A stretch of 37,332 nucleotides of DNA. Origin: Zymomonas sp. Lineage in GTDB: Bacteria; Pseudomonadota; Alphaproteobacteria; Sphingomonadales; Sphingomonadaceae. Location of the stretch: assembly GCA_027489105.1 (NCBI GenBank), contig JAIYAJ010000536.1, forward strand, positions 1-37,332, given 5' to 3'. Position numbers and translations under genes: made by a program. Shown piece after piece: positions 1,921-35,693 of the stretch. Under the pieces are notes generated by a model, which worked only from the letters and a program-made list of their open reading frames with translations, was not told where the DNA came from and did no database searches. Within the stretch, counting starts at the first letter, position 1. Each line of letters starts with the position of its first letter.

Positions 1921-4158
1921 TCAGAACGGCATGCCTCCGTCATCTTGGGCATCGAGGCCGGGCAGGTTGTGCGGCTGCGCTGCGGCCTCCTGCGCGCGCT
2001 GGCTGGTCGCAGGGCCGGTGGCCATGCCGCCGTCCAGCGTCTCGCCATCGGCCAGCATCAGGAAGGTGCGGATGTTGACGCGCCAGCCGCGCCCGTTGAA
2101 ACGCCGCGAGTTGACGGCCTCGGCCCCCTCGAGCCGCTCCATGGCCTGCGCCCAGCCGCCCTTGACGCCGGGCTCGCCGCGCCAGTGGGTGCCGTCGAAC
2201 AGGCGGCGCAGCCCCTCGCCGAGATAGGGCAGCACCACGGTGGCCCTGTCGCCCAGCCCGTCGACATGGATGTTCCAGGCCGTCAGCGCCTCTTGGCAGC
2301 TGCGATAGCTCTGCGCGCCCTTGTCGTCGGTGTCGATGCCGGCCGCGCGCGCCACCAGCTTGCCCACGGTCATGCGGTCGCCGCCACGGAAGACATCGAG
2401 CGGGATCGAGAGCAGGTGGTTCAGCATCGATTGCGTGTTGCTCGGCTGGTAATCTTCGGCCTTGCGCTGGCTGGCCACGGCGGCGCACAGGCTCATCACC
2501 GTGTCGGCATCGGGCAGGCCGTCAAAGCGCATCAGGTCGGCCATGGCCAGCAGCGTGCCCACCTGGTCAAGCCCGCGCGGGTTGTAGCCGTGCTCGGCCA
2601 GCCCGGCGCGATAGGCCTCGAAGGTCTCGGGCCAGCGCGGCCAGCCATCGACAAGGCGGCGGCGCAGGCCGGCGCCGACATGCTTCCACTGGTCGGCGTC
2701 GAGCTTCATGCGGGCCGATCCGGTCACCAGCGGCTTGAGCTTGAGCACCATGATGCGGCTGGCGTCGGCGGGCGGCAGGCTCGGCACGATGATCGAGCCG
2801 AACATGAAGGAGCTTTTGGCGTTGAAGGCGTGCGCCTGGTGGTCGGATGAGCCGCGCAGCTTGGAGCCGCCGGAGGCCGCCTGCCGCGCCAGCTTGATCA
2901 GCGCGTGCACGCGGCGGGTGTTGCCCTCGTCCTCGGCCTCGTCGAGCAGCACGGCCTTGGTGGAGTAGCCCAGCGTGGAGGACACGCCGCTTTCGGTCGC
3001 GTCAGAGGCGTGCACGAAGCCGCCGGAGAGCACCAGCTGCACCAGCTCGATCAGCGTGGTCTTGCCGTCGCCGGCGTCGCCGGTCAGCCACAGCACCGGG
3101 CGGAAGGCCAGCGCCGCGCCGGCAAGGCTCGAGGCCAGCCAGCCCAGCTTGAGGATCGAGGCCAGCGCATGGCCCGAGCCGTCCCAGTCGATGCGCTTGC
3201 CGTCCTCGCCGGCCTCGCCGCGCCAGTTCCAGCTGTCGAGCACGTCGAGCAGCTGCTTGGCCACGGTGCGCGGCGCGGGCTCCGGCGTCGGGCGCGGCAC
3301 GTCGTCATCGGCGGGGTAGATATAGCCGCCATGCTCGCCCGGCGGCAGCCACTGGCCGTCGATCAGCACGGCGTCGCCCGCGTGCAGGATCAGGCTGCCG
3401 GCATTGTCGCGCCAGCCGCCGACGCCACGGATCCGCGTCATCGGGTTGAACACGGGCTTGTCGCCGCAGGCCTTCATCAGGCTTTCGGCCAGCTCGTCGA
3501 CCTTCCAGCCGGTCTGCTGGAAATTGGCGTTGAACTTGGGGTAGTTGTTCCAGCACCAGGGCAGGGCCGGGCCGAACAGCTCGCGCAGGCACGGCGCGTT
3601 GTGGTCCTTGGCCTTCAGCCCGCGCAGCTCGCCCTTCGGGCACAGATACCAGCAAACGCCGCCCGATTTGCCGAGCGGGATCACCGGGCAGCTGTCAGGC
3701 AGCGGCTTGACGGGGTTCTTCTTTTTGGTCCAGCCCTCACCATCAGGATCAGATGACCCATCTGCGTCAGCTGGTGGCGGCTCACGGTCACCACCCCCGC
3801 CATCAGCAGCATCCGCCTCACGATGGGCATGCTCATAGCCATCAGCCGGGCGCGGCCCCTTGGCGGGCTTGGGCTTTGGGTTGATCGCCTCGAGAACATC
3901 ATCATCAGACCAGCCGAAAGCACGGCCCACCTGCAGCGCCTTGATGCGCCCGGCCTCTCCCCCGCCGGCGCGCTTGAACGCACCCTTGATCGACAGCCGG
4001 TCGGCATCGCGCTCGCGCTGCATGCGTTCTTGGTCAAAATCACGGTCTTTGTTTGGCCTATCGCCCTCTGGGCTGCTTGAGGCCTGCTGCGCAGCCAGCT
4101 GCGCCACCGCTTCCTGCATGGCGGCAGCGATCGGCAGCAGGGTTTGCGGCTCGGTCAT
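1921..4158 (-). CDS. DUF927-type AAA+ replicative helicase
   Basis: A 745-residue protein that probably unwinds the phage origin. Residues 1-150 are acidic and repetitive. Residues 154-290 form a conserved region with CWYLCPKGE. An ATPase domain follows, with Walker A GDAGDGKT at 360-367 and Walker B-like AVLLDEAE near residue 400. The ATPase region resembles the DUF927 superfamily helicases of alphaproteobacterial prophages. The ATG at 4158 overlaps the TGA of the TOPRIM gene (ATGA), so the two are translated together and may act as a split primase-helicase like the P4 alpha protein. Its 3' end faces the iteron array. Oddity: residues 25-35 (ASSSPEGDRP) are encoded by an inserted copy of the 30-bp palindromic element, in frame. 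Confidence 0.82.
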   Translation of the reverse strand: MTEPQTLLPIAAAMQEAVAQLAAQQASSSPEGDRPNKDRDFDQERMQRERDADRLSIKGAFKRAGGGEAGRIKALQVGRAFGWSDDDVLEAINPKPKPAKGPRPADGYEHAHREADAADGGGGDREPPPADADGSSDPDGEGWTKKKNPVKPLPDSCPVIPLGKSGGVCWYLCPKGELRGLKAKDHNAPCLRELFGPALPWCWNNYPKFNANFQQTGWKVDELAESLMKACGDKPVFNPMTRIRGVGGWRDNAGSLILHAGDAVLIDGQWLPPGEHGGYIYPADDDVPRPTPEPAPRTVAKQLLDVLDSWNWRGEAGEDGKRIDWDGSGHALASILKLGWLASSLAGAALAFRPVLWLTGDAGDGKTTLIELVQLVLSGGFVHASDATESGVSSTLGYSTKAVLLDEAEDEGNTRRVHALIKLARQAASGGSKLRGSSDHQAHAFNAKSSFMFGSIIVPSLPPADASRIMVLKLKPLVTGSARMKLDADQWKHVGAGLRRRLVDGWPRWPETFEAYRAGLAEHGYNPRGLDQVGTLLAMADLMRFDGLPDADTVMSLCAAVASQRKAEDYQPSNTQSMLNHLLSIPLDVFRGGDRMTVGKLVARAAGIDTDDKGAQSYRSCQEALTAWNIHVDGLGDRATVVLPYLGEGLRRLFDGTHWRGEPGVKGGWAQAMERLEGAEAVNSRRFNGRGWRVNIRTFLMLADGETLDGGMATGPATSQRAQEAAAQPHNLPGLDAQDDGGMPF
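4055..4084 (-). repeat. 30-bp palindromic element, copy 1 (in frame inside the helicase gene)
   Basis: Outer stem GGCCT/AGGCC, inner stem GCCC/GGGC, loop AGA, unpaired CAAGCA opposite GAT. Read with CAAGCA on the minus strand, which is the coding strand. It lies inside the helicase coding sequence near residue 30 and keeps the frame because 30 is a multiple of three. Confidence 0.85.
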
Positions 4159-5258
4159 GCCAATTCCTTGTCCGCCACAGGCGCTCCGGATGCGGCAAAC
4201 CGGATCAGGTCGGCCGCCTTGCGCGCCTCGTTGAAATCCTTGTGGCCGCCCGGCGCCCAGATCGGCACGATCGGCAGCTTGCTCAGGTTGGCCAGCCGCT
4301 GCACCTGCCGCTCGGCGGCGGCGGTGGCGTCCGGCCCGTCGCGGTGCCGGTGCCAGATCACGCCGCTGCACAGCTTCGGCAGGCCGATGCCGCCCATGTT
4401 GCTGAGGCTGATGCCGGCCCAGATGCGCAGGTGCGCGCATTCATAGGCGGCGCTCAGCGCGTCCTCGATGCCCTCGGTCAGGAGGATCGGCTCGGGCGCG
4501 GTCATCCTGCCATGCGGCACGCCTGAGGCCCCGCGCCAGATCGGGATATGCCCGCCCTTGATCGGCCCCAGCGACAGCTTGGCGTTGCTGACGCCGCCGA
4601 GCTTGCCGACAGAGCCGTCAGGCCGCACCTCGAGGAAGGTGCGGTGCAGGCCCTTGACGCTGCCATCGGCCGCCATCACCAGCGCCACCAGCGCCGGGTG
4701 ATGGGCCTTGGTCTCCGGGTGCATCATGCCGGGGTGGAATTTCAGCGCGCTTGGCGTGCGGCCCATCTCGCTCAGGCGGATGCCGCGCCCGTTGAGATAG
4801 CGCTCGGCCGGCGAGCCGGGCAGGGGCCGCGCCTCCTGCCCGAAGATCTTGATGGCGCTGTCATGCAGCCTGTCGGCCCGCTCGGCCTCGGCCCGTGCGG
4901 CGGCGGCCTGCGCCTGCAGCGCCTTGCGCTCGGCCCGGCGCACCTCGTCCGGCGTCAGGCTGCCTGATCCGGTCAGCTCGCGGGCGCGGGTGATCGCCGC
5001 GCCGATGTCGCCGCCGGTCAGCTGCGCCGCCACCAAGTCCAGCATCGAGCCGCGCTCGCCGCTGGCAAAATCGGTCCACAGGCCCTGATAGCGCCCGGTG
5101 CGGTTGATCGCCAGCGACTGGCCGCGCTCGCCGCCCAGCGAGCCGATGCGCCAGTGCGGCCCGTCGCGCATGGCCGCCGGATACAGCATCGGCACCAGGT
5201 CATCGACCCGCGCCGCCAGCCGGTGCTTGATCATGTCGAGCGAGACCAGATGGCTCAT
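4155..5258 (-). CDS. TOPRIM-domain primase-like protein
   Basis: A 367-residue protein likely to prime phage DNA synthesis with the helicase encoded next. Residues 30-80 keep the pattern of a CHC2-type primase N-terminus (GPHWRIG, GGERGQSLAI, DFASGERGSMLDLV) but the zinc-binding Cys/His residues are missing. Residues 110-130 are an Ala-rich charged helix. Residues 258-268 (ILLTEGIEDAL) match the start of a TOPRIM fold, with the conserved glutamate at 263. The usual second TOPRIM acidic motif appears only as IWHRHRDGPD (301-310), so catalysis cannot be taken for granted. Both gene ends overlap neighbours by ATGA. Assignment to the Toprim family is good; the primase role is inferred from context. 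Confidence 0.78.
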   Translation of the reverse strand: MSHLVSLDMIKHRLAARVDDLVPMLYPAAMRDGPHWRIGSLGGERGQSLAINRTGRYQGLWTDFASGERGSMLDLVAAQLTGGDIGAAITRARELTGSGSLTPDEVRRAERKALQAQAAAARAEAERADRLHDSAIKIFGQEARPLPGSPAERYLNGRGIRLSEMGRTPSALKFHPGMMHPETKAHHPALVALVMAADGSVKGLHRTFLEVRPDGSVGKLGGVSNAKLSLGPIKGGHIPIWRGASGVPHGRMTAPEPILLTEGIEDALSAAYECAHLRIWAGISLSNMGGIGLPKLCSGVIWHRHRDGPDATAAAERQVQRLANLSKLPIVPIWAPGGHKDFNEARKAADLIRFAASGAPVADKELA

Positions 5259-5548
5259 CGCGCCATCTCCTGCCCGATGGCCAGCGCCTTCTGCAGGCGC
5301 GGCAGGCACGGGTGATCCTTGCCATAGGTCTTGAGCAGTTCCTTGATCGCACGGTCTGCGCAAAGCTCGATCGCCACGGCCCGCGCCTTGGCTACGCCCA
5401 GTTTCTGGACAGTGTGCGGCGTCAGCAGGCCCTGATTGATCGGCGAGCGCCGGAACACATCAGCCACCGGCTTCGGCAGCACCTCAAGCCTGCGGAAATC
5501 TTCCTCGACCGTGATGCCGGTCTTTGGGACAGGGCGGTTGACGCTCAT
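5255..5548 (-). CDS. Small early protein, unknown function
   Basis: A 97-residue protein in the leftward replication operon, joined by ATGA overlaps to the genes on both sides. It is basic and predicted helical, with a central stretch TPHTVQKLGVAKARAVAIEL that could be a short helix-turn-helix-like fold. No family is recognised. Its position between the small 121-residue gene and the primase suggests an early replication or regulatory role, which is inference only. Confidence 0.7.
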   Translation of the reverse strand: MSVNRPVPKTGITVEEDFRRLEVLPKPVADVFRRSPINQGLLTPHTVQKLGVAKARAVAIELCADRAIKELLKTYGKDHPCLPRLQKALAIGQEMAR

Positions 5549-5910
5549 GCCGCCACCTTTTCGGTGCGCTTCATCCCGGCAAACCCAGCCGCATAGGCCT
5601 TCGGGTCCGCCAGCCAGAGCGCGATCAGCTCCGGCGTCAGCACGGCGATCAGGTCCGGCGATATCCGCACATGCAGCGTGGTGTCGGGGTGCTGCAGCGT
5701 CTCGAGCAGCGTCACGATGTTCTCGGCCTGCCCGATGCGGTAATCAGCTTCCTTTTTCGGCTTCACGCGGCTGCCATCGGGATTGAGCTTGTTGAGGAAA
5801 TTGCGCCGCATGCCGACCTCGCGCCGCATTTCGTCCTCGAGATTGGCCAGGTCCGCCCGCGCCAGCTTGTCAGGGCCGATGGCGGCTTTCAGGTCATCCA
5901 CCGCGCTCAT
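5545..5910 (-). CDS. Small early protein, unknown function
   Basis: A 121-residue protein of the replication operon. The first half (LEDEMRREVG, RRNFLNKLNPDGS) is charged and helical. The second half has VTLLETLQHPDTT and ends in KAYAAGFAGM. The ATG at 5910 overlaps the stop of the preceding gene (ATGA) and has a good ribosome site, AGGGG, 8 bases upstream. That same AGGGGCACAAT leader reappears before the ejection protein start at 21367. No known domain is recognised. Confidence 0.7.
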   Translation of the reverse strand: MSAVDDLKAAIGPDKLARADLANLEDEMRREVGMRRNFLNKLNPDGSRVKPKKEADYRIGQAENIVTLLETLQHPDTTLHVRISPDLIAVLTPELIALWLADPKAYAAGFAGMKRTEKVAA

Positions 5911-6308
5911 GATTGTGCCCCTGCCGCGCCGTCAGGCCGGGCTACCAGCCTCTGGCCTGCCTGAGCCCCGCCTGCCTGAGGGGCGATACTCGCGACCGGC
6001 CTGACCGCGTTGACCACCGCGCCCAGCGCCGCATCGAGCACCGCCGCACAGCGCGGATAGCTGGCCACCGCCATCACCGCCGCGTCGTCCTCGATGTCGC
6101 GGGCGCAGGCGATCAGCTGCACGGCAAACCGCAGCTTGCGCCAGTCGGCTGTGTCCATGTGCGTGCCAGCCTGCCAGGTGATCAGCGGCAGGCCGCCCTT
6201 GATCGGGCCAGAGACATGCAGCCTCATGCTCACCACGCCGAACGAGACCTTGGCAAAGGTCTGGAAGCGGTCGGACAGGGGCGGGAAGATAAAGCTTGGC
6301 GCGGCCAT
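5907..6308 (-). CDS. Small early protein with element-derived C-terminal tail
   Basis: A 133-residue protein of unknown function. Residues 1-95 look folded (FIFPPLSDRFQTFAK, WRKLRFAVQLIACARDIEDD). The tail after about residue 105 (QAGGAQAGQRLVARPDG) is encoded by a diverged copy of the 30-bp palindromic element and its flank, so the natural C-terminus has probably been replaced or extended. The start at 6308 was chosen because translation upstream would run through another decayed element copy and no conserved-looking sequence precedes it. The downstream gene overlaps by ATGA. Confidence 0.65.
   Translation of the reverse strand: MAAPSFIFPPLSDRFQTFAKVSFGVVSMRLHVSGPIKGGLPLITWQAGTHMDTADWRKLRFAVQLIACARDIEDDAAVMAVASYPRCAAVLDAALGAVVNAVRPVASIAPQAGGAQAGQRLVARPDGAAGAQS
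5939..5968 (-). repeat. 30-bp palindromic element, copy 2 (in frame, diverged)
   Basis: Outer stem GGGCT/AGCCC, inner stem GGCC/GGCT with one wobble pair, loop AGA, CAGGCA opposite GGT. It differs from the common form at many positions yet keeps the length of 30 and both stems. It encodes residues about 114-123 of the 133-residue early protein. GCCTGCCTGAG is repeated just beyond it (5969-5980), perhaps a remnant of a second copy. Confidence 0.72.
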
Positions 6309-6320
6309 GGCTGTCTCGCT

Positions 6321-8510: not shown

Positions 8511-8758
8511 CCCGCCCCGCCATGTTCAGCCGCCTGATCGAGGCGGACCTTGTCGCCCTTGGCTATGTCATCGCCGGCGCCATCACCGGCGTGTTCACGG
8601 TGCTGTTCTGGCTGGGCGGCGTGCCGCTGGCGCTGGTGCTGCCCCATGGCGCGCTGGCCCTGCTGCTGATGGCCTGCGGCGTGCTGATCGAGGCCAGCGC
8701 CCGCCCCGGCTTTTTCGTCAGCGTCGATGACGGCGTCGAAGGCGAGAGGGTCGGTTGA
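8507..8758 (+). CDS. Small two-helix membrane protein
   Basis: An 83-residue protein with two predicted transmembrane helices, about residues 15-38 (ALGYVIAGAITGVFTVLFWL) and 40-62 (LALVLPHGALALLLMACGVL). The C-terminus is acidic. ATGA links it to the previous gene and TGATG to the excisionase-like gene. The function is unknown; early-expressed phage membrane proteins can act in host takeover or exclusion. Confidence 0.7.
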   Translation: MTRPAMFSRLIEADLVALGYVIAGAITGVFTVLFWLGGVPLALVLPHGALALLLMACGVLIEASARPGFFVSVDDGVEGERVG

Positions 8759-9039: not shown

Positions 9040-9069
9040 CGCCTCAAGCAGCCCGAAGGGCGATAGGCG
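9040..9069 (+). repeat. 30-bp palindromic element, copy 3 (tandem 1 of 3)
   Basis: Outer stem CGCCT/AGGCG, inner stem GCCC/GGGC, loop GAA, CAAGCA opposite GAT. It overlaps or abuts the stop codon of the excisionase-like gene. Confidence 0.88.
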
Positions 9070-9078: not shown

Positions 9079-9108
9079 CGCCTCAAGCAGCCCGAAGGGC
9101 GATAGGCC
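9079..9108 (+). repeat. 30-bp palindromic element, copy 4 (tandem 2 of 3)
   Basis: CGCCT/AGGCC outer stem with one terminal mismatch, inner GCCC/GGGC, loop GAA. Nine bases separate it from copy 3. Confidence 0.88.
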
Positions 9109-9116: not shown

Positions 9117-9146
9117 CGCCTCAAGCAGCGCGAAGCGCGATAGGCC
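9117..9146 (+). repeat. 30-bp palindromic element, copy 5 (tandem 3 of 3)
   Basis: CGCCT/AGGCC outer stem with one terminal mismatch, inner stem switched to GCGC/GCGC, loop GAA. It ends 18 bases before the integrase ATG. Confidence 0.88.
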
Positions 9147-10406: not shown

Positions 10407-10408
10407 TT

Positions 10409-10438
10409 GGCCTACCGCCCTTCGGGCTGCTTGAGGCC
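10409..10438 (-). repeat. 30-bp palindromic element, copy 6
   Basis: GGCCT/AGGCC outer stem, GCCC/GGGC inner stem, loop GAA, CAAGCA opposite GGT. It begins two bases after the integrase stop. The outer flank (10439-10451) carries GCGCGAAGCGGCT on the minus strand, shared with copies 13 and 14. Confidence 0.88.
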
Positions 10439-10535
10439 AGCCGCTTCGCGCTCTCCGAGAGCCAACCATTCCATCATCCACCCACCCGTTGCGTGTTGCG
10501 TCCCGCGTCTCACCCCTCACCAGAAGGATCAGCCC

Positions 10536-16581: not shown

Positions 16582-16586
16582 CGGTG

Positions 16587-21367: not shown

Positions 21368-23964
21368 TATTGTGCCCCTACCGGCCCTTGGCCTGCTTGA
21401 GGGCCGATGCCGCCTTCAGCGCGCGTGCAGGCATCCAGCTCGGCCAGCGCCTGTTCGTTGTCGGCAAGGCGGGCCAGCTCGGCACGGGCAGAGGTGGCCT
21501 TTGTGCCGCCCTCCATCCAGACGGGCGCATCGCCGATCTCGGCCAGCTGCCGCTCGACGCTCTGGATGCGGAGCTTATCCTTGAGTGAGAGGGCAGGCGT
21601 TGACGCGGCCTCACCCTCGGTTTTGACACGCACCCTCACGGATGGCTCATTCGGCGCGCGTGGCACGGTCTGCTTCGGGGCTGGCAGCTGGCTGGCTGGC
21701 GTGTCGATCACCTGCGCCAGGCGCGCGATCGCCGCCACGGGCCAGCGCTCGCCGCCCATCAGCTCGGCCGAGACAGCGCGGTCAGCCGCGCGGGCAAGCC
21801 GGTCCTGCACGATGTCATCGGGCAGGCGGATGGTCAGGGCGTCATCAGCAAAAAAAGCCCGCGCCAGTGGCCCGTCAGGCCCGGCCTTGATCGCAGCGGC
21901 AAGATCGGGCCGGTTGCGCGTGACAATCTCAAGCCCGGTCAGGGCGGTGAAAGGTTCGGCCCGGGCGCTGACAGAAGTGGGCCGGAAGGCGAGAGGCTGC
22001 GGCGCGACGCGGCCCCGCTCCATGGCGGCAGCAGCCTCGTCGATGGCCTGCCCTTGTAGGAGGGCTGCTTCGTCTAGGCTTTGCGGGCGGCGGCTTTCGC
22101 CAGACGGCGCGTCGTTGCTGCCGCCTCCTCGAGGCGCAGTTTCCTGGCCGGGTCGGTCTCCCGGGAAGCTGCCGTCATCAGGGCCTGTGCGGCCTTCTCG
22201 TGCGCTTGGGCTGAAATCTGCATCGTCAAATCCCGGAACAAATTCCCTATACACTGGCGCAACGATTGGCGCAATTTCTGGATCGTTGAGCAGCCGCTCC
22301 ATCGACGCCCGGTCGAATGCGGCAATCGCATCCTCAAGGTCACCCCTTGCCAGCAGCTCGGCAGCGCGCGAGATGTCGCGTGGATCGAGGGCCGACAGGT
22401 CATCTTCAAACGATGACAGCGCACGGCGCACATCATCCTCGCGCGCAGCGATCTCGCTTTCCCAGCGGGCGTTCTCCACCTCAGCGCGCGAGCTGGTCGA
22501 GAACTCGGCAGCTGCTTCCTCGTCGGATCGGCGATAGCGCCGCTGCTTGAGCGTTCCTTCATCGCGCAGGGCGTTGCGGATGTCGTCATAGACGGCCAGA
22601 TCAGCGCGGGCATAACCGTCCGGCCCGGCGTCGAGATAGCCTTCCTCGGTCAGCTTGTTGATCCACCAATCGAGCGAGCGGCCAGACTTGCGCGCCACAG
22701 GTCCGCCGCGCGGAATGAATATGCGGTCCAGCCCCAGCGCCTTGGCGTCGCTGTCGAGCGCAAGGCCGCCATTGCGACCGATGAACTCGGCCATGCTGAC
22801 AGGCCGCCTGACCGTGGGTTGCGGCACGCGAGGCGCTGGCACAAGCACCCGCGCCTGCTCGTCAAGCACTGCGTTGCGCTCCTCGAGGAGCGCGATCGCG
22901 TCAAGGTCTTCCGGCTCAAGCCTTGTCGCCACCTCGCGCAGCTGCGGGCTTTGCTCGAAACGGCCAAATTCAACGCCTGAAGCAGGGGCGTTCAGTTCGG
23001 CACTGAAGCGGGCCTCACCTTGCGGCACTGACACAATGTCAGAAATCGTCCCAGCGCCTTTGCCTGCTTGAGGCGGAGGCGCGCGCCTGCCCATGTCGGC
23101 CACACCCGGCAGGTCCGGGATGACCGGCAGTTCGCCGGCGGCCAGATCGAGACGGCCGGAGCCATCGACGCCGGCGCCGAACGGGGTGGCGGCGCGCGGC
23201 GGTGTCATTTCGTTGGTCGAGAAATCGAACGCCGTGGTCTGGCTGGCGCGATAGTCGCGATATGAGCGCAGGCCAGCCGCCCCGGCGCGGAACACGCCGG
23301 CGAAGGCAGCCTGCCCCATGCGGGCCTGCACGATGTTCTCGATCGAAGTATTCTGCAGCCCGAGCTGCTCGCGGCCGGCGGCGATGAATGGTTCCTGCAC
23401 GGCCTGGCCAAGCATGCCGAAGCCGGCCTCGCGCGCCAGCATGCGCGGCACCGAGCCGGTCAGCGGCCCGCCCAATGGCATCAGCGCGATGTTGACCGGC
23501 GACACCATCTGGCGCGAGATGCCGGCGGCAAAGCTGGTGGCGTAGCCGGACAGTCCATAGGTCGCCGCGCCGACATCCTCGGCCCGCTTCTCGATCTCGC
23601 GGGCCCTGGTGCGGGCATTGCCGACGATATCGGCGAAGGGTTCGATCTGCTTGCGCTGGTCTTCCGGCAGCTTCGCGGCCAGCGCCGTGAAGGCATCGGA
23701 GGCGGCGCGCTCGCCACCTGGCCCGACCAGCCTGATGCCGGTGTCGCGCGACAGCTCGGCAAGGCTCTTGCCGGTGACGCTTTCCAGCCGCTCGAGCAGC
23801 TCGCGGCGCGCATCCAGCATGGGCTGGCCGACGCCGTCGAAGGTATCGAGGCCGGACGCGGCCCATTCCGCCTGCCAGACATCGCCCAGCGTCGAAGGCG
23901 GGCGGGCCTGCGGCATCTCGCTCAGCTGGCGCAGGCGGCCTGCATAGGCGGCATCGAGCGTCAT
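21367..23964 (-). CDS. Internal virion/ejection protein with element-derived tail
   Basis: An 865-residue protein of the T7-type internal core gene group. Residues 120-230 have Gly/Ala-rich hydrophobic segments (YATSFAAGISRQMVSPVNIALMP) and a long disordered middle rich in Pro, Arg and Glu. The last ten residues (GPQAGQGPVGAQ end) are encoded by a copy of the 30-bp palindromic element, in frame to the stop. A second half-copy near 23065-23075 encodes PPPQAGKGAG inside the protein. It starts at ATG 23964 overlapping the transglycosylase gene stop. No catalytic motif is recognised. Confidence 0.72.
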   Translation of the reverse strand: MTLDAAYAGRLRQLSEMPQARPPSTLGDVWQAEWAASGLDTFDGVGQPMLDARRELLERLESVTGKSLAELSRDTGIRLVGPGGERAASDAFTALAAKLPEDQRKQIEPFADIVGNARTRAREIEKRAEDVGAATYGLSGYATSFAAGISRQMVSPVNIALMPLGGPLTGSVPRMLAREAGFGMLGQAVQEPFIAAGREQLGLQNTSIENIVQARMGQAAFAGVFRAGAAGLRSYRDYRASQTTAFDFSTNEMTPPRAATPFGAGVDGSGRLDLAAGELPVIPDLPGVADMGRRAPPPQAGKGAGTISDIVSVPQGEARFSAELNAPASGVEFGRFEQSPQLREVATRLEPEDLDAIALLEERNAVLDEQARVLVPAPRVPQPTVRRPVSMAEFIGRNGGLALDSDAKALGLDRIFIPRGGPVARKSGRSLDWWINKLTEEGYLDAGPDGYARADLAVYDDIRNALRDEGTLKQRRYRRSDEEAAAEFSTSSRAEVENARWESEIAAREDDVRRALSSFEDDLSALDPRDISRAAELLARGDLEDAIAAFDRASMERLLNDPEIAPIVAPVYREFVPGFDDADFSPSAREGRTGPDDGSFPGDRPGQETAPRGGGSNDAPSGESRRPQSLDEAALLQGQAIDEAAAAMERGRVAPQPLAFRPTSVSARAEPFTALTGLEIVTRNRPDLAAAIKAGPDGPLARAFFADDALTIRLPDDIVQDRLARAADRAVSAELMGGERWPVAAIARLAQVIDTPASQLPAPKQTVPRAPNEPSVRVRVKTEGEAASTPALSLKDKLRIQSVERQLAEIGDAPVWMEGGTKATSARAELARLADNEQALAELDACTRAEGGIGPQAGQGPVGAQ
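21375..21404 (-). repeat. 30-bp palindromic element, copy 7 (at the end of a coding sequence)
   Basis: GCCCT/AGGGG outer strands (four pairs), inner stem GGCC/GGCC, loop AAG, CAAGCA opposite GGT. It supplies the last codons of the 865-residue protein and the AGGGG ribosome site of the next gene. Confidence 0.82.
23055..23075 (-). repeat. Possible decayed element copy (in frame)
   Basis: CGCCT-CAAGCA-GGC remains on the minus strand; the other arm is lost. It encodes PPQAGKG inside the 865-residue protein, similar to the PQAGQG peptide of copy 7. Confidence 0.45.
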
Positions 23965-27283: not shown

Positions 27284-29464
27284 TCACATGCTGCCGGCAT
27301 CGACATCGGGATAGATGCCGAGCAAGGTGAAGGGGAGGGCGTCGTCGCCGGAGAATTCCAGCGCGGCGTCGCGGTCATTGGTCGGCTCGACCGTTGTGAC
27401 GACAACGCCGCTGGTGAGCTTGCGCGGCCCGCCGGCGAAGCTGCGGCCGAGCGGTGCGATGTCGGAGGCCGGCATGCCGCGCTGGGCGATCTGCCCGCCC
27501 GCGCTTTCGTGCAGGTGCAGGCCAATGCGGCCCGCAGCCTTGGGGCTGCCGGCGGTCGGCCCGGCCGGGGTCTGGGTGTCGAGTGGCAGCGTCCGGATCA
27601 GCCATGGCATCGGCAGGCCGACGACGATGTCGGAGGCGGGCGCATCCAGCGTGATCACGCCGGCCGTGACGACGCAGCGCGGGCGCTCGTCGCCATCGGC
27701 AAACACGGCGACGGTTTCGCCTTCGAGATGGTCAAGCCCGTCCAGCGTCGTCACCGGCGCGCCCTGATAGCGCAGGCCGCAATCGACGAACCAGGCGCCC
27801 GAAGCGTCAGGCGCATCCTCGTCCGCCGCCACGAAATAGGGCTGCAGCAGCTCGACATAGCGGCGCACCTGGCCGTTGATGGTGCGGCGCACGATCATCC
27901 ACAGCTCGGTCAGGGTCTCTGACGCCGACTGGACGCAGGCGATCTGCTCGATCACCGCGCCCGGCATGACCATGCGGTGCCAGCCGAGCACCTCCTGTTC
28001 GGGGATGAAGCTGAGGCCGCGCACCTCGCCGGTGTCGAGCCGGAACCAGATGGTGCGGTAAGGGTCGCGCTGGTCGGCGATCTGCTGGGCGCGGTCGAAC
28101 AATGCCCGGCGCGAATAGGCCGTGAGGTCAGTCACCTCGACGCGCTCGCCGAGGCTGTCGAAGCGGGCGAAATAGGCATCGCGGCGCGAGCGCCCGACAT
28201 AGATGGCGCCGCCCTCGGTCAGCACGGCGGCGGCGGCTGCGGAGCCGCGCGAGGATTGCGGCAGGGCGCGCAGCGTCGGCGTGGTCAGGCGCTCATAGGC
28301 TTCCTTGCCGCGCAGCACCCAGATGCCGGAGCGCGTGCCGACAATCAGCACGCCGGCGGGCTGCAGCCACTGGATCTGCACCAGCTTGCCATCCGGCGAC
28401 AGCAGCCTGACCGACCATGCCCCGTCCTCGGGCTTGGTTTCATCGAAGGAGCTGATATCGCTGGTCTTGGCGGCATAGACGTCATTGCCGCGCGCCCAGA
28501 CCACGGAGCCGTCGAACAGGCAGACCGTGCCGGGCCAGCCGCGCACGTCCGACCAGGCCGCCTCGTACCAGCGGAAGGTGCCCGGAGACTGCACGCTGTC
28601 CGGCAGGCGCTTGACCACCGTGGCCTGCACGGATGTCGCCGACAGATAAGCCGTGATGCGGCAGAAGCCGGATGTGGTGAACAGGTAGCGCCAGGTGGTG
28701 TTGCCGGCGCCGCTGGAAAAGTCGCCATCCTCATGCACAGGCGCGGTCGGGCCGGTGTCGGTTCCGGCCACGACAACCTCGTAGACGATGCCCCGGTTCC
28801 GGCGGCGCGCGCCGACCGTCACCACCTCGAGCGCCTTCCAGGCCGGAATGGTGCTCAGGTCGCCCTCGTCCAGCCGCCAGACCGAGCCGACATGGCCGGG
28901 CAGAAACGTGGATGTGCTGGCTGTCAGGACAATGTTGCCCGAGGTGCCCGAGGCGGTGATGGTCCGCGTCTTGTCGGTGTTCTGCAGCCGGACAGGGCCT
29001 TCGATCAGCTCATAGTCGGTCAGCGTCCAGTTGGTCGGGCTGAGCCTTGTCAGCACGCGCGGACGGCCAGCCCCGGCGATGAACACCTGATCGACCGACT
29101 GGGCCTGCTGGATCGAGGCGAGATCAGCCGCGCTGAAGCCGGTCTCCAGCTCATAGGGCGCGCCGGGGCTGCGCTCGACAAAGCCGCCATCCTTGAGCAC
29201 GCGCATGACGCCGTCATTGAACACCAGCATGTAGCTGTCATCGGCGCCGGCCTCGAAATCCATCAGCAGGCCGGGCTGGCTCTGGTCGCGCAGCGGCAGC
29301 ACGAAGCGCGTGCCCGAGCGGCGCTGCAAGGCCCCTTCCGGCAGCGACACGACATTGACCAGCCGCGCCTTGCCGGACTGCCAGCGCGCCAGATCGCGAC
29401 GGGCCGCCAGAAGCGCAGCAACCTCGCCGGATGCGCCGGAAACCTGATCGAGCCTGTATTTCAT
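27284..29464 (-). CDS. Tail tubular protein B-like nozzle (T7 gp12-like)
   Basis: A 726-residue beta-rich protein. The N-terminus (LVNVVSLPEGALQRRSGTRFV) and the following FEAGADDSYMLVFNDGVMRV have the repeated pattern of podovirus nozzle proteins that form the hexameric tail tip. It follows the gp11-like adaptor gene, the T7 order. The ATG at 29464 lies 3 bases from a 30-bp element whose TTGAGGGC end supplies GAGG at a spacing of 5 bases, the only visible ribosome site. Confidence 0.85.
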   Translation of the reverse strand: MKYRLDQVSGASGEVAALLAARRDLARWQSGKARLVNVVSLPEGALQRRSGTRFVLPLRDQSQPGLLMDFEAGADDSYMLVFNDGVMRVLKDGGFVERSPGAPYELETGFSAADLASIQQAQSVDQVFIAGAGRPRVLTRLSPTNWTLTDYELIEGPVRLQNTDKTRTITASGTSGNIVLTASTSTFLPGHVGSVWRLDEGDLSTIPAWKALEVVTVGARRRNRGIVYEVVVAGTDTGPTAPVHEDGDFSSGAGNTTWRYLFTTSGFCRITAYLSATSVQATVVKRLPDSVQSPGTFRWYEAAWSDVRGWPGTVCLFDGSVVWARGNDVYAAKTSDISSFDETKPEDGAWSVRLLSPDGKLVQIQWLQPAGVLIVGTRSGIWVLRGKEAYERLTTPTLRALPQSSRGSAAAAAVLTEGGAIYVGRSRRDAYFARFDSLGERVEVTDLTAYSRRALFDRAQQIADQRDPYRTIWFRLDTGEVRGLSFIPEQEVLGWHRMVMPGAVIEQIACVQSASETLTELWMIVRRTINGQVRRYVELLQPYFVAADEDAPDASGAWFVDCGLRYQGAPVTTLDGLDHLEGETVAVFADGDERPRCVVTAGVITLDAPASDIVVGLPMPWLIRTLPLDTQTPAGPTAGSPKAAGRIGLHLHESAGGQIAQRGMPASDIAPLGRSFAGGPRKLTSGVVVTTVEPTNDRDAALEFSGDDALPFTLLGIYPDVDAGSM

Positions 29465-29467: not shown

Positions 29468-29497
29468 GCCCTCAAGCAGCGCGAAGCGCGATAGGGC
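29468..29497 (+). repeat. 30-bp palindromic element, copy 8
   Basis: GCCCT/AGGGC outer stem (a full compensating change relative to GGCCT/AGGCC), GCGC/GCGC inner stem, loop GAA. It fills most of the 43-base gap between the two tail tube genes and provides the ribosome site of the nozzle gene. Confidence 0.9.
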
Positions 29498-29507: not shown

Positions 29508-30119
29508 CTACCATCGGCTCGTTACCCAGCTGGTGGAGCGCGTCACCTGGCTGCGGGCCGCCTCGCGGTTGTTGACGCGGCGGGCAGTGCCAAGCCTGCG
29601 CTCCGCGCGGGCGTCGAGATCGTCGGCGGCATCGGCCTGGCCGAGCAGCGGGGCAATGCGGGAGGCAAGGCGCAGGGCGAAGACTTCGAGGAACAGGGCG
29701 TCCCAGAGCCCCACCTCGCCGACGAGGCGGACATAGCGCACACGCGGCGCATCGACATCGGTGCACAGCACCGGCACGGCAGGGGCGGTGTCGTCATCGA
29801 CGCCGGCGCGGGTTTCGACCGTCCAGCTGTCCTCGTCCAGACCATCGACAGAGATGACGCGGACGCAATCGGCGGGCAGGGGGTAGATCTTGGAGAACGC
29901 GCCGGCGCTGGCGGCAGGGTCGCGCGCCGGAGAGGCTGGCGTCATGGCGAAGTTCCATGGGTGCGAGCGCAGCAGCGCATCGCGGATATCGGCAAAGTGT
30001 GCCTTGGCATGGCGCGCGGCGGGCCGGTTTTCGTCCAGCGAAGCGAGCGGGCCCTCCTTGAGGTGGGCCAGCGCCGCATTGGCTGCCGAGACTTCCGAAC
30101 CGCCGCGAGAGAGCGTCAT
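29508..30119 (-). CDS. Tail tubular protein A-like adaptor (T7 gp11-like)
   Basis: A 203-residue protein. HFADIRDALLRSHPWNFA near residue 45 and KIYPLPADCVRVISVDG near 78 follow the common pattern of gp11/gp4-type gatekeeper proteins that ring the portal and bind the nozzle. FLEVFALRLASRIAPLLGQ forms the closing helix. The ribosome site GAGGA, 6 bases before the ATG, comes from 30-bp element copy 9. Confidence 0.84.
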   Translation of the reverse strand: MTLSRGGSEVSAANAALAHLKEGPLASLDENRPAARHAKAHFADIRDALLRSHPWNFAMTPASPARDPAASAGAFSKIYPLPADCVRVISVDGLDEDSWTVETRAGVDDDTAPAVPVLCTDVDAPRVRYVRLVGEVGLWDALFLEVFALRLASRIAPLLGQADAADDLDARAERRLGTARRVNNREAARSQVTRSTSWVTSRW

Positions 30120-30124: not shown

Positions 30125-30154
30125 GTCCTCAAGTAGCGCGAAGCGCAATAGGAA
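30125..30154 (+). repeat. 30-bp palindromic element, copy 9
   Basis: GTCCT/AGGAA outer stem (four pairs), GCGC/GCGC inner stem, loop GAA, CAAGTA opposite AAT. It lies 5 bases upstream of the tail adaptor start. Confidence 0.84.
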
Positions 30155-30163: not shown

Positions 30164-30193
30164 GTCCTCAAGCAGGCCAAAGGCCGATAGGAC
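30164..30193 (+). repeat. 30-bp palindromic element, copy 10
   Basis: GTCCT/AGGAC outer stem and GGCC/GGCC inner stem, both different from the common type and both fully paired; loop AAA. It is nine bases from copy 9, as in the tandem ahead of the integrase gene. Confidence 0.9.
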
Positions 30194-30204: not shown

Positions 30205-30690
30205 TCACTGGTTGCTGAGGACGTAGTGCACTTCCGTGAACAGCGAGAATGCTGCCGTGACGTTGCCGCCCTGGACGCGGTGGCCGAGCTGCAGCCAGCG
30301 GTTCGGGTCGGCTGTCAGGCCCGCATGCTGCCAGACGCGGCGGCCAAGGTTTGGCACCGTGACCGAGGCCATGCCGGCCTTGGAGCCCGCCGCGACCACG
30401 GACTGCGCCGCTGCCAGGCAGTTGATCGCGCCGGCTGGCACCTCGTTGAGGAAGCCGAGATCGAGCGTGGTCGCGCCGGTGGCCGCCGTGTGGTCGAAGC
30501 GGCTGATCGGCAGGATGACGGCGCTCGAATGGATCTGGCCGAGGAAGATGAAATCGCCGATGACCGTGCTGGTCGGAATGCTGCCGAAGCCCATGATCGT
30601 GCGGACCACGGAGCCAAGGAACAGGTTGTCGGGCGTCTTGTTGAGGGCGGTGGCAGGATCTGGGGAACCCTGCAGGAAGACATTGGGCAT
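30205..30690 (-). CDS. Head-associated protein, unknown (capsid accessory candidate)
   Basis: A 161-residue, beta-rich protein with no charged tail (LGSVVRTIMGFGSIPTSTVI, GDFIFLGQIHSSAVILPIS, FSLFTEVHYVLSNQ). It lies between the capsid gene and the tail adaptor gene, a place for head completion or decoration proteins. The pattern resembles short proteins downstream of podovirus capsid genes. The function is not established. Confidence 0.68.
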   Translation of the reverse strand: MPNVFLQGSPDPATALNKTPDNLFLGSVVRTIMGFGSIPTSTVIGDFIFLGQIHSSAVILPISRFDHTAATGATTLDLGFLNEVPAGAINCLAAAQSVVAAGSKAGMASVTVPNLGRRVWQHAGLTADPNRWLQLGHRVQGGNVTAAFSLFTEVHYVLSNQ

Positions 30691-30787: not shown

Positions 30788-31705
30788 TCAGGCTTCGTTG
30801 CAGTGGACTTCAACGACCTTCACATCCTCGGAGCGGGTCGCGCCGAAGAACTGGACCGAATAGGCCTGGATGTTGAAATTCGAGGTCGGATCGCGGTCGA
30901 TCGTGGTCTGCAGCGGATGAAACTCGCCATAGTGCAGGCCGGACTTGAGCCAGAGCGGATTGCGGCGGCGCGTTGCCGTCGTGATGGTCGGGATCAGCGA
31001 GGCTGGCAGGCGCACGAACTCGACGCCCATGAACGACACAACGGTCTCGGTCAGTTTGTCGAGCACCATCTTGCTGCGGTAATCCGCCGAGGTGTACTGC
31101 ACCATGCGGTAGAGGTCTTCCATCTGCTGGTTGGTGATCGCCATCACCGCCTTGTCGCGCATCAGGTCGGCCTCGGAGATGCTGAGCAGCGAGATCGCGC
31201 GCACGATCTTGTCGAAGGTCAGGCGCGAGGCGGTTGCCGATCCGATCGGAACGTAGTCATGCGCCACGATGCCGTTCGGGTTGTTGTAGGCCTCGATCAC
31301 AAGCCCGTTCTTGCCGGTGCGGCGCGGGCCGAACCAGGCCTCGGCGATGATCGCATCCTTGCCACGCTCATGCGCGGCCGCCATGGCCTGCAGGTTCGGA
31401 TTGAGCAGGTCCGTGACCAGCTTGATGTCGTCTTCCTTTTCCTCGAGGAAGCCGTCATCCAGCTTTTCGGGTGTCACGTAGACCTCCTCGAGGCGGCCCT
31501 CGATGCGCGGGGTCGCAGCGCCGCGCGGGCTGTTGCGGCGGGCTGTGCGGGCCGCGACGATCTGGATCGCGCGGGCCATGTCGCCCTTGAGGTTCGGGTG
31601 GAACGTGCAGTAGTCGAGCAGCCGCGAACGGGTCTGCTGGCAGGCAAGGATGACGTTGTCCTGGAACGTCGCGCGATACATCGCGGGAATGGGCTCAAAA
31701 GCCAT
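30788..31705 (-). CDS. Major capsid protein
   Basis: A 305-residue protein, the size and place of the shell subunit (after the scaffold, before tail genes). N-terminal FEPIPAMYRATFQDNVILACQQ, a central helix-turn region KIVRAISLLSISEAD, and C-terminal NIQAYSVQFFGATRSEDVKVVEVHC fit a group of podovirus capsids with the HK97-type fold, as inferred from pattern. Arg-rich segments (AARTARRNSPRG) may line the inner shell. A 330-base gene-free leader with a head-to-head pair of 30-bp elements lies upstream. Confidence 0.8.
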   Translation of the reverse strand: MAFEPIPAMYRATFQDNVILACQQTRSRLLDYCTFHPNLKGDMARAIQIVAARTARRNSPRGAATPRIEGRLEEVYVTPEKLDDGFLEEKEDDIKLVTDLLNPNLQAMAAAHERGKDAIIAEAWFGPRRTGKNGLVIEAYNNPNGIVAHDYVPIGSATASRLTFDKIVRAISLLSISEADLMRDKAVMAITNQQMEDLYRMVQYTSADYRSKMVLDKLTETVVSFMGVEFVRLPASLIPTITTATRRRNPLWLKSGLHYGEFHPLQTTIDRDPTSNFNIQAYSVQFFGATRSEDVKVVEVHCNEA

Positions 31706-31964: not shown

Positions 31965-31994
31965 GGCCTACCGCGCGTCGCGCTGCTTGAGGCC
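31965..31994 (-). repeat. 30-bp palindromic element, copy 11 (head-to-head with copy 12)
   Basis: GGCCT/AGGCC outer stem, GCGC/GCGC inner stem, loop GAC, CAAGCA opposite GGT. Its last four bases are shared with copy 12. Confidence 0.88.
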
Positions 31995-32020
31995 TGAAGC
32001 AGCCCGAAGGGCGATAGGCC
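31991..32020 (+). repeat. 30-bp palindromic element, copy 12 (head-to-head with copy 11)
   Basis: GGCCT/AGGCC outer stem, GCCC/GGGC inner stem, loop GAA, GAAGCA opposite GAT. It faces copy 11, so the pair could also fold as one long imperfect hairpin. Confidence 0.88.
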
Positions 32021-32034
32021 CAGCGTGAGAAGCG

Positions 32035-32379
32035 TCAGGCGGCCTTGGCGGCTTCGGCCTCATCGAGCGCAGCTTGCCGCGCTGCTGCACTCTTTTCGGC
32101 TTCGGCGGCGTCGTAGCCGCCAGCCGAAACAGGCGGCACGCCGCTCGCCTCAAGGGCCTTGACCAGCCCGGCGGCTCTGGCCTGCACGGCGGCCTCGAAA
32201 TCCGCCTGCAGTTCGGCAACCTTGGCCTGCACGCGCTCATCGACGGCGGCGTTGAAGTTTTGCGTCATGTCGGCGGCGTCCTTGTGTGCGGCAGCCAGGC
32301 GAGCCTCAAAATCGGCGGTCAACGCGGCGATTGCATCCTCGGTCGGCGCGGTGGTGGTTTCACTGGTCTGCTCGGTCAT
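32035..32379 (-). CDS. Coiled-coil head-region protein, unknown
   Basis: A 114-residue, Ala/Glu-rich, helical protein (AIAALTADFEARLAAAHKDA, VQAKVAELQADFEAAVQARA). The composition suits a small scaffold-like or head assembly protein between the main scaffold and the capsid gene. The ATG at 32379 has AAGGA 8 bases upstream and is preferred over ATG 32403, which has none. No family is recognised. Confidence 0.66.
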   Translation of the reverse strand: MTEQTSETTTAPTEDAIAALTADFEARLAAAHKDAADMTQNFNAAVDERVQAKVAELQADFEAAVQARAAGLVKALEASGVPPVSAGGYDAAEAEKSAAARQAALDEAEAAKAA

Positions 32380-32491
32380 GGTCTTCGTCCTTTTGGTTGT
32401 CATGGGGTTTGTCTCGTCTGTTGGTGGGTACGCTACGCAAAGTTCTGGATTGCTTCGGTTTGCCTGCAATGACGGGGAGCGCGAAGCGGCT

Positions 32492-32521
32492 GGCCTCAAG
32501 CAGCCCGAAGGGCGATAGGCC
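32492..32521 (+). repeat. 30-bp palindromic element, copy 13
   Basis: GGCCT/AGGCC outer stem, GCCC/GGGC inner stem, loop GAA, CAAGCA opposite GAT; this is the commonest form. GCGCGAAGCGGCT lies directly before it (32479-32491). It lies between scaffold and coiled-coil protein genes. Confidence 0.9.
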
Positions 32522-32526
32522 AAAAA

Positions 32527-33964: not shown

Positions 33965-33999
33965 CTTTCACCCCCAATGACCGAGCGCGCGAAGCGGCT

Positions 34000-34029
34000 G
34001 GCCTCAAGTAGCCCGAAGGGCGGTAGGCC
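34000..34029 (+). repeat. 30-bp palindromic element, copy 14
   Basis: GGCCT/AGGCC outer stem, GCCC/GGGC inner stem, loop GAA, CAAGTA opposite GGT, with GCGCGAAGCGGCT just ahead (33987-33999). It ends 5 bases from the portal stop. Confidence 0.9.
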
Positions 34030-34034
34030 CAACA

Positions 34035-35627
34035 TCACGCCGCCACCCTCTTGCTGGCCAGGCTCTGCGCCTGTTCGGCATGGCTGGCTTCGGCTGCGAT
34101 CTTGACGGCCTGCCCGGTCTGCTCGAGCTGCATGGCCTGCTGTTGCTGCTGGGCGCGGCCCTGCCGGATTTCCGCCACCCTGGCCGGGTCGCGCAGCACC
34201 TTGGCAGGCGGGCCGAAGGCATCGTGCAGCACGGCGCTGACGCCCTCGGTGTCGACCACGTCGAAGGCCTCCGGATCGATCTGCGCCATCTGGCCGACGG
34301 CGCCGACCCATTGCAGCGTGGCCCTGCCCTTGGCCGCGCTCTGGGCCTTGTCGAACGGCGAGACCGTGCCGACCGTCAGCATCTGGCCTTCCAGCTCCGG
34401 TGGCGGCGGCGGGAACTGCCCGGCCCGGTTGAGGATCTGGAAGCGGCGCTTGAGGAAGGGCACGTGGTGCGTGGTCTGGATCTTGACCAGGTTGTGGCCC
34501 ATCAGGCGCAGCGTCTCCTCCTGCCAGCCGAGAAACTCCGCCGCCGTCATCTGCGGGCGGTTGGCCAGCGCCATCATGCTGAAACGGAAGGCGTTGCGGA
34601 TCGACTGGCGGCGCTGCTCGCTCTGCTGCATCGACAGCTGCAGGTTGCCGCCGGTGTTGAGCACCTGCATCAGCTGCTTGCCCGCCTCGCTCATCGTGCC
34701 GTAGAGCAGCGCGTTCGGGTTGATGTCGGCGCTGGTGATGTCGCTGTCGCCGTGCAGCAGCTTCATCGGCTCGGCCGCGAACTGCGCCGCGACCACGTGG
34801 CTGCGCTCCATCTCGTTGAGCTGGCGCGCATCGGCCCGGCTGGTGTGGCCCGGCCCGCGCGGATAGACCCGGCCCGCCCGCTGGTCCCACATGGCCACAT
34901 GATAGGGCATCTCATGATAGCCGCCGGTCTGCATCCAGTGTTTGATATCGGTGCTGCAATAGCAGCTGGCCCATGGCTTGCCGCGCGGCCCAAGACGGCC
35001 CGGCTCATAGTCCATATTCGGATGGACCGCATGGATGATCTGGTAGCTGCGCTTCTCGTCCACGCCTTCGACCGTGCCAAACTTTCCAAGGATTTGGCGG
35101 CCATTGAGCATGAACTTGCGGTGAAACGTGTCAACATCGCCGTTGCCGTCAAGGTCGATATAGCCTTCCTTCAGCGGAATGGCGCGGTCGATGATGCGCT
35201 GGCGGCCCACATCCTCCTCCTGATGCTGCACGCCGATGCCGAAGCAGCCGACATCGCCATAGACCGGCGCGACCGAGGTGTAGAAGGTGCTGGCATTGGG
35301 GCTGAGGCTGGCGCGGACGATATGCGCCACCTTGTCGAACCAGAGCTTGACCGGCTGCCAGGCCATCAGATCCTCATCCGGCACGCCGAAGCCGAACCAG
35401 TCCACCGCGGGGCTCGACGACTGGCCGAACAGGCCGCCGACAAAATCGTCGTTGGCATAGATCGGCGAGCTGTCGAACACCTCGTCATAGCCGCGCGGGC
35501 TTTTCGGCCCGGCGAAGTCGGCCTCCTCGGGGCGGATCAGCTCGGCGCACTCGCGCCAGAGCTTCTCCTCGGGGAGCCTGAGCGCTTCCAGTTCCGACTG
35601 GCGCGCGATGATGGCCTGGCTGTCCAT
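34035..35627 (-). CDS. Portal (head-to-tail connector) protein
   Basis: A 530-residue protein close in length to the T7 gp8 connector (536). N-terminal RLPEEKLWRECAELIRPEEADF, then SPIYANDDFVGGLFGQSSSPAVDWFGF and later AQFAAEPMKLLHGD and WLGWQEETLRLMGHNLVKI fit the Bacteriophage head-to-tail connecting protein family. It forms the dodecameric DNA gate at the capsid vertex. The C-terminus has a Gln-run coiled coil (RAQQQQQAMQLEQTG). The ATG at 35627 follows AAAGG; an upstream in-frame extension would translate through the 30-bp element and is rejected. Confidence 0.92.
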   Translation of the reverse strand: MDSQAIIARQSELEALRLPEEKLWRECAELIRPEEADFAGPKSPRGYDEVFDSSPIYANDDFVGGLFGQSSSPAVDWFGFGVPDEDLMAWQPVKLWFDKVAHIVRASLSPNASTFYTSVAPVYGDVGCFGIGVQHQEEDVGRQRIIDRAIPLKEGYIDLDGNGDVDTFHRKFMLNGRQILGKFGTVEGVDEKRSYQIIHAVHPNMDYEPGRLGPRGKPWASCYCSTDIKHWMQTGGYHEMPYHVAMWDQRAGRVYPRGPGHTSRADARQLNEMERSHVVAAQFAAEPMKLLHGDSDITSADINPNALLYGTMSEAGKQLMQVLNTGGNLQLSMQQSEQRRQSIRNAFRFSMMALANRPQMTAAEFLGWQEETLRLMGHNLVKIQTTHHVPFLKRRFQILNRAGQFPPPPPELEGQMLTVGTVSPFDKAQSAAKGRATLQWVGAVGQMAQIDPEAFDVVDTEGVSAVLHDAFGPPAKVLRDPARVAEIRQGRAQQQQQAMQLEQTGQAVKIAAEASHAEQAQSLASKRVAA

Positions 35628-35663
35628 GGGTGGACCTTTCACATCAGAGGAAGGAGAACCCCG

Positions 35664-35693
35664 CGCCTCAAGCAGCGCGAAGCGCGGTAGGCG
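35664..35693 (+). repeat. 30-bp palindromic element, copy 15
   Basis: CGCCT/AGGCG outer stem extended by one more G-C pair, GCGC/GCGC inner stem, loop GAA, CAAGCA opposite GGT. It lies between the portal gene and the small gene upstream. Confidence 0.9.

Follow-up and report, generated by a model that had tools for sequence, protein, structure and literature searches.

What keeps a short two-stem palindrome paired while its sequence changes, and how does it come to lie fifteen times in a single phage? The question is raised by a 37,332-nucleotide contig assigned to Zymomonas sp. (JAIYAJ010000536.1; below, the window, meaning the whole stretch analysed), which we infer to be a temperate, podovirus-like phage, the podovirus class being taken from its connector protein. 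The element is a 30-bp hairpin in which an outer 5-bp stem and an inner stem are separated by an internal loop, typically CAAGCA facing GAT. It is probably a REP-like mobile palindrome family (REP, repetitive extragenic palindrome) that has no GTAG or CGTC tag and no REP-associated tyrosine transposase (RAYT), is arranged head to tail, and has the phage as a carrier. This reading rests on four observations: the element is dispersed in Brevundimonas chromosomes and in several phage or prophage contigs, it forms head-to-tail arrays, its pairing is kept while stem sequence changes, and its presence, number and orientation differ at the same junction among related genomes.

A preliminary description had counted fifteen copies in the window, all exactly 30 bp, and a structural scan locates every one of them in its place. 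The scan gave 19 rows, the extra four of which differ at 2 of 6 core positions and are chance-like. The strict design matches 15 times in the window and 0 times in each of 200 first-order Markov sequences, and a covariance model, built partly from the window copies, returns exactly 15 matches at E <= 1e-3. The outer and inner stem states are seen as described, the loop is indeed mostly GAA (10 of 15 copies), and the copies occur in both orientations, those starting at 4055, 5939, 10409, 21375 and 31965 on the minus strand and the other ten on the plus strand. Absent from that description are the terminal base pair, unpaired in 4 of 15 copies (9079, 9117, 21375 and 30125), one G.T pair in copy 5939, and AAT in place of GAT or GGT in copy 30125.

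Among the 15 window copies, 97.0% of pair cells are paired, versus 81.2% in shuffles. Changes on both sides of a pair number 15 versus 4.0, and the covariation score is 0.366 versus 0.087; none of 500 shuffles matches the paired fraction, the both-side changes or the score. Pairs with a both-side change number five, a count reached by 8 of 500 shuffles. Sliding the partners by 1-3 columns abolishes the signal. A larger alignment was assembled from 79 distinct sequences, minus three doubtful ones (L134:7478, L148:4929 and L155:2755), plus five window copies, giving 81 rows. Over its 76 distinct sequences 96.6% of cells are paired, with 85 both-side changes versus 23.5 in shuffles and a covariation of 0.365 versus 0.079, a value as high being found in 0 of 500 shuffles; sliding the partners destroys this signal also. 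The claim that paired bases change together around a nearly constant unpaired part is therefore borne out both in the 15 copies and in the 76 sequences. A check of loop positions 10 and 24 for covariation was negative. In the two copies tested, predicted folding is only moderately better than that of shuffles on either strand (z -0.7 to -2.1).

The same pattern had been taken to mean selection on a folded RNA or single-stranded DNA (ssDNA) with a recognised unpaired part. A kept hairpin and unpaired part are supported, and either RNA or ssDNA may be the folded form: 182 distinct hairpins have 17 G.T pairs versus 20 A.C mismatches (p = 0.74; 14 versus 11 without the terminal pair). Selection on a single RNA strand should tolerate G.U more, and G.T being no commoner than A.C indicates no strand-specific wobble tolerance. 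Taken together with the occurrence of both orientations, the wobble counts do not establish a strand-specific RNA function and point to action at the DNA level or to a weak strand preference, with RNA use possible at particular sites.

Hardly any variation is seen in the internal loop (CAAGYA facing GRT) or at the T-A and A-G positions next to it, whereas both stems vary in sequence. The inner stem varies in length as well: shortened to 2 bp it gives a 26-nt form, of which one small alphaproteobacterial genome has many (26 matches at E <= 1e-4) and which occurs also in phages; forms with a longer inner stem are seen by eye upstream of two gshB-like genes. Overlooked in the preliminary description is an A-rich tail 3' of the hairpin. 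Positions +2 to +9 are A in 397 of 672 cases (59%), versus 426 of 2184 (20%) at +15 to +40 (p = 3e-81, the sites from related genomes being not fully independent), and the tail is present also in 44 copies without a sense start codon within 40 nt. Otherwise the information in the flanking columns does not exceed 0.35 bits 5' of the hairpin and is mainly A-richness 3' of it; these flank and column statistics include doubtful rows from unrelated phyla, and most rows come from a search pattern that fixes the loop. Over the fetched loci, related genomes included, 89 of the 92 head-to-tail neighbours within 70 bp are spaced 35-42 bp apart (mode 39-40), and within 120 bp there are five pairs of inverted neighbours. 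Up to 12 near-identical copies stand in one array. Since the length of hairpin plus tail equals the tandem period of 39-40 bp, we put the full unit, 30-bp hairpin and A-rich 3' tail together, at about 39 bp.

Some repeats may extend beyond this unit. An upstream sequence, GCGCGAAGCGGCT, lying beyond the hairpin, is common to window copies 10409-10438, 32492-32521 and 34000-34029, so that the unit may sometimes be copied with its flank. Roseobacter sp. SK209-2-6 (G007; L062, L103 and others) has five equal-scoring copies, two of which share flanks, suggesting a larger repeated unit that carries the element; the inner hairpin there is the variant GCCGAATAGGC. A Hyphomicrobiaceae metagenome-assembled genome has three head-to-tail copies (L223, 11788-11895), flanked by what we take by eye to be dnaG-like and rpoD-like genes.

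The element is found well beyond the window. The pattern CCTCAAGCA-N11-GRTAGG matches 58 viral stretches and at least 120 genome stretches, many of them from Brevundimonas, and the structural scan gives clear copies in 11 of the 58 viral stretches. A covariance-model search, as had been proposed, places copies both in chromosomes and in phages, hence the family is not phage-only. Of 41 genomes sampled from the genus of Brevundimonas sp. G8, the model finds the element in 40, at 2-46 copies (E <= 1e-4). It is in 14 of 289 genomes of a class sample and 13 of 299 of a phylum sample, the positives of each including at least three genomes of the Brevundimonas genus (G001, G070 and G285). The window carries 0.40 copies per kb (15 in 37.3 kb, E <= 1e-3), whereas one Brevundimonas chromosome has about 0.012 per kb (41 copies over 3.32 Mb, E <= 0.01), a comparison that is indicative only because Brevundimonas may not be the host of the window phage. 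Other viral contigs have 10 copies in 30.6 kb, 8 in 35.3 kb, 12 in 31.3 kb and 9 in 32.4 kb. The element-bearing viral contigs form at least two sets: L005, L016, L044, L055, L471, L472 and L475 have proteins distantly homologous to those of the window (22-36% identical), and for the L294/L469 group the pieces compared give no protein match to it. Between the window and 29 viral contig pieces there are 13 DNA matches, all on elements. BLAST of two joined copies against phages and plasmids gives no match at E <= 0.1, and one copy at E <= 10 gives weak matches, the best (E = 0.01) in an Acuticoccus plasmid with three places. In the G001 chromosome none of the 34 listed positions falls within 2.32-3.03 Mb, near the skew-inferred terminus, and copies crowd toward the other half.

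Matched sites in related genomes differ in whether they carry the element. In a pair of phage contigs that share 97.8% identity where they were compared, the differences include a 71-bp stretch holding a tandem pair, and a duplication of 34 bp. A related contig carries three copies at the first of these two sites. In Brevundimonas, junctions can be compared before genes that we take, from their sequence, to be rluB-, Lon-, Trm112- and gshB-like. At the last three (11 genomes) some species have the element and others lack it, and all copies there are sense and lie close before the start codon; Lon- or Trm112-like neighbours were found in 11 genomes, and 20 further loci yielded no such neighbour. 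The rluB-like junction was read in 30 of the 59 genomes with a match: 17 loci have the element in sense (one with three copies), one in antisense, six are empty and six have other upstream DNA. At the six empty junctions stop and start overlap or abut.

The filled rluB-like sites also vary in sequence. Their outer stems include GCGCT/AGCGC, GCCCT/AGGGC and GTCCT/AGGAC, and one inner pair is C-G, T.G (L439, L441) or T-A (L456, L464 and, separately, L458). The preliminary description had allowed that the covariation might vanish once phylogeny was accounted for; at this one orthologous site compensatory change is seen on the gene tree, as read by eye, with 10 of the 27 inner forks weak. In several filled cases the A-rich tail, on our reading, became the start ATG plus lysine codons, and in three (L452, L453, L457) the reading frame appears to pass through the element, which would form the N-terminus of the rluB-like protein. 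Translated in this way, the element of these three would resemble the coding palindromes of Rickettsia. Upstream of gshB-like and rluB-like genes at L301, L302, L305, L308, L440, L443 and L444, the element is replaced by other palindromes from Brevundimonas intergenic regions, whose arms resemble GGGGACCCAGCGGCGCC and TCATCCCCGCGAAAGCGGGGACCCAG; these are apparently separate repeat families.

If the element is a mobile palindrome, the folded form, most likely an ssDNA hairpin recognised via its unpaired loop, would be the substrate of a host mobilising activity. Tandem arrays may grow by slippage or unequal exchange, and copies placed after one stop and ahead of the next start would persist because they do little harm. 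Some copies may have been taken over as intercistronic leaders, to which the A-rich tail would supply a spacer or even a start codon, and the phage would have picked up its copies from such a host.

Some points limit the evidence for selection on the fold. In the 76 sequences, the five pairs with a both-side change are matched by 157 of 500 shuffles. Copies found by the search pattern had columns 3-11 and 23-28 fixed by it, so that in them a constant loop and three of the outer pairs cannot count as independent evidence; the pattern left the inner stem and the two end pairs free. A palindrome-correcting mutation process could yield covariation without selection. Other points weigh against the mobile palindrome. 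Among 56 nonredundant Brevundimonas sites (simple gene caller, arrays merged, orthologs clustered from 83 clusters to 56), 21 are same-direction sense, 9 same-direction antisense, 17 convergent, 7 divergent and 2 intragenic, and the same-direction gaps thus favour sense (p = 0.043). No replication-strand bias is seen in one chromosome (19 versus 15, p = 0.61), in a hand count of 34 of 41 positions with the origin guessed from skew. The persistence of filled sites across Brevundimonas, with compensation that includes a T.G intermediate, is as for a functional RNA, and where the tree has an empty site within a group of filled ones, either a loss or a gain could explain it. Finally, no mobilising enzyme was found: the Y1_Tnp domain is in only 1 of 41 Brevundimonas-genus genomes and in 0 of 4 genomes with 41-47 copies.

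The same domain is in 2 of 3 genomes with 1-7 copies; among 14 control genomes its search is positive in five, E. coli and Caulobacter being two of them. Three Y1 loci were checked for the element and have none nearby, and no transposase-like neighbour was seen by eye beside the arrays read. The window itself, as had been stated, encodes no RAYT-type transposase, with 0 of 30 proteins matching Y1_Tnp (Pfam, E <= 0.001). Mobilisation by a RAYT is therefore unsupported, Y1_Tnp being absent from the four high-copy genomes and rare in the genus, and the three Y1 loci lacking the element.

The alternative that survives best, though an unlikely one, is that the element is a cis-acting RNA of intercistronic or 5' leaders. 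A host factor or the ribosome would bind the internal loop of the hairpin and so set translation start or mRNA processing of the next gene, phages using what hosts read, much as with Cluster K start-associated sequences or processed intercistronic hairpins. In one related phage-contig group the copies compared with called genes are all sense and mostly within about 30 nt of a start, and the 21 same-direction sense cases in hosts have a median of 16 nt to the next start. The sense copies at the Lon-, Trm112- and gshB-like junctions and the compensation via T.G at the orthologous site fit it as well. However, 7 of 9 copies in the late operon of the window are antisense, as are all seven copies at viral loci L465, L471, L472 and L475 (three phages; L471 and L475 are 99.3% identical over 4.4 kb). 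The tail is present where no start is near, the wobble counts give no sign of a preferred strand, and the downstream genes look like unrelated housekeeping genes, if the names given to them are right. The wobble counts and the antisense viral loci leave a strand-specific RNA unsupported as the sole function. A regulon is unsupported, as the downstream genes appear unrelated by eye.

A second alternative, to which we give little weight, keeps mobility and changes the class: A-tailed hairpins that spread without a RAYT, with temperate phages as the main carriers, and that donate a leader or start codon when inserted between overlapping stop and start codons. The spreading form might be a small structured RNA, its A-rich tail heterogeneous, which undergoes reverse transcription and insertion; the hairpins would then be bacterial counterparts of short interspersed nuclear elements. 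Alternatively, an unrecognised single-strand nuclease might spread them.

It is very unlikely that no selection is involved and that the copies are recent ones adrift, their palindromes kept by template-switch (quasi-palindrome) correction in replication. Stem changes are mainly G-C to C-G flips, the commonest mismatch is C.C (21) and wobbles are not enriched, all of which fits such a process. But correction cannot act on the unpaired loop, so that loop constancy counts against it: the loop is recognisable where the pattern did not fix it, in tandem neighbours and orthologous rluB-like copies, and in short and long inner-stem forms too. A duplex DNA-binding site for a repressor, partition or recombination, like stoperators or parS, is scarcely credible, for although a ParB-like gene lies beside the integrase and the copies spread from 4055 to 35693, the stem bases change freely while paired, which a duplex-binding protein would not follow, so that the covariation largely refutes a fixed site, and the element is also in chromosomes and in phage contigs whose compared pieces have no detected protein similarity to the window.

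The proteins of the window were compared with PHROGs and Pfam. Matches identify primase-like proteins (1921-5258), an integrase (9165-10406) adjoined by a ParB-like protein (10407-11357), an endolysin (15658-16602), a capsid protein of Phage_capsid_2 (30788-31705), a head-tail connector (34035-35696) and, more weakly, a terminase (35972-37105). A tRNA scan of the window finds none, and no Rfam family scores above gathering. The phage collection, queried with bases 1-25000, holds no near relative (one 76-base match), nor does the plasmid collection, queried with bases 12333-37332. Relatives of the connector protein are in 53 of 385 class genomes at up to 39% identity, and the element was sought at 12 of these loci and found at none. 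For the capsid protein, a homologue at 89% identity is encoded on a metagenome contig of 33,952 bases; a scan of viral contigs for the capsid homologue confirmed nothing.

Twelve of the 15 window copies lie between predicted genes. Copy 4055 (4055..4084, minus strand; GGCCT CAAGCA GCCC AGA GGGC GAT AGGCC, with an A-rich tail at about 4046-4054) may do so too: it is sense, with an in-frame ATG (4023) of the primase-like gene that ends at 1921 following 31 nt later, and it is inside that gene if the start given by the gene caller, 4158, is correct. Two copies overlap gene 3' ends, namely, a degenerate hairpin (5939..5968, minus) inside the C-terminal end of predicted gene 5907-6308, and copy 21375..21404 (minus), which overlaps the C-terminal codons of gene 21367-23964 and is sense, 7 nt before the ATG of gene 18749-21367. 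Three head-to-tail copies on the plus strand precede the integrase: the first (9040..9069) is directly 3' of the stop of predicted gene 8758-9039, the second (9079..9108) is spaced 39 bp from it and the third (9117..9146) 38 bp from the second, with the integrase ATG (9165) 18 nt further on. Another copy (10409..10438, minus) is 2 nt past the integrase stop codon, in antisense.

The remaining copies extend to 35693. An antisense copy (29468..29497, plus) occupies the 43-nt gap between genes 29508-30119 and 27284-29464, and an antisense head-to-tail pair with 39-bp spacing (30125..30154 and 30164..30193, both plus) lies between genes 30205-30690 and 29508-30119. Downstream of gene 32035-32379 a sense copy (31965..31994, minus) is met by an inverted, antisense one (31991..32020, plus); within 31965-32020 the two overlap by 4 bp. 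Three further antisense copies, all on the plus strand, follow stop codons closely: 32492..32521, 5 nt past the stop of a gene ending at 32527, its AAAAA tail adjoining the stop codon; 34000..34029, 5 nt past that of the head-tail connector gene ending at 34035; and 35664..35693, 6 nt past that of gene 35700-35957.

How the element relates to known systems was also considered. Our search found no published description of it, and none of six element strings occurs in the literature texts searched; most subscription journals lie outside that search, so this does not imply that it is unpublished. An intrinsic terminator is rejected, since the 3' flank is A-rich rather than T-rich and a terminator has a U-run on the transcribed strand. 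A known Rfam family is rejected also, with no match above the gathering score; below threshold there are AsdA (E 9.2), speF (E 1.4) and, at one of eight loci, FuFi-1 (26.9 bits versus 59.6, E 0.022). CRISPR arrays have repeats with unique 25-45 nt spacers beside cas genes, whereas arrays of the element (7 and 12 copies) have 30-bp repeats with 8-10 nt gaps and, by eye, no Cas-like neighbour proteins. A kink-turn or the 11-nt tetraloop receptor finds no support, since the loop letters do not match.

Among phage repeats, the start-associated sequences (SAS) and extended SAS (ESAS) of Cluster K are similarly dispersed near starts, about half with inverted repeats; SAS is a fixed 13-bp sequence that is uncommon outside Cluster K phages and has no exact copies in two named host genomes (PMC3203893). 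Unlike SAS, the element covaries, is also chromosomal and has no fixed orientation. A single orientation just before starts is not general to it, although one phage-contig group largely shows it. The 17-bp dyads of Cluster O resemble it in that more than 30 palindromes occur per phage genome, many are intergenic and orientation means little (PMC4351075).

REPs had been named as the nearest analogue, and remain the nearest known kind. The element is likewise a short extragenic palindrome, dispersed in many copies, although its 2-46 copies are fewer than the >100 given as usual for REPs (PMC2817692). GTAG REPs include the families GTAG-3 (enterobacteria and others) and GTAG-14 (Bradyrhizobium/Rhodopseudomonas). 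They share with the element a size of 20-40 bp, an extragenic location mostly between same-direction and convergent genes, covarying stems and, in some, di- or trinucleotide interruptions and a variable inner stem; stem, short interruption and variable inner stem make up the architecture of GTAG-3 and GTAG-14 (PMC3733652). Unlike them, the element has no conserved unpaired GTAG at an end, its internal TAG being paired in the last two bases; it is A-tailed and phage-dense, with no RAYT found in high-copy genomes. Its head-to-tail dimers also differ in orientation from those reported for GTAG REPs (PMC3733652). CGTC REPs are mostly alphaproteobacterial, extragenic and apparently without a dedicated transposase, like the element, but it has neither the terminal CGTC nor the CCA tail, and its stem is not one of 8-9 bp beginning with complementary A/T (PMC3733652).

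Such elements can evidently be far denser in phage genomes than in chromosomes, and their abundance in phages is the surprise here. Pairs with and without the element, in near-identical phages and among Brevundimonas species, make the unit, its ends and its effect on starts directly testable. Because end tag, dimer orientation and transposase differ, we call the element REP-like and not a REP; it would add to the REP-like families one that lacks the sequence tag and the transposase typical of the best-known REPs.

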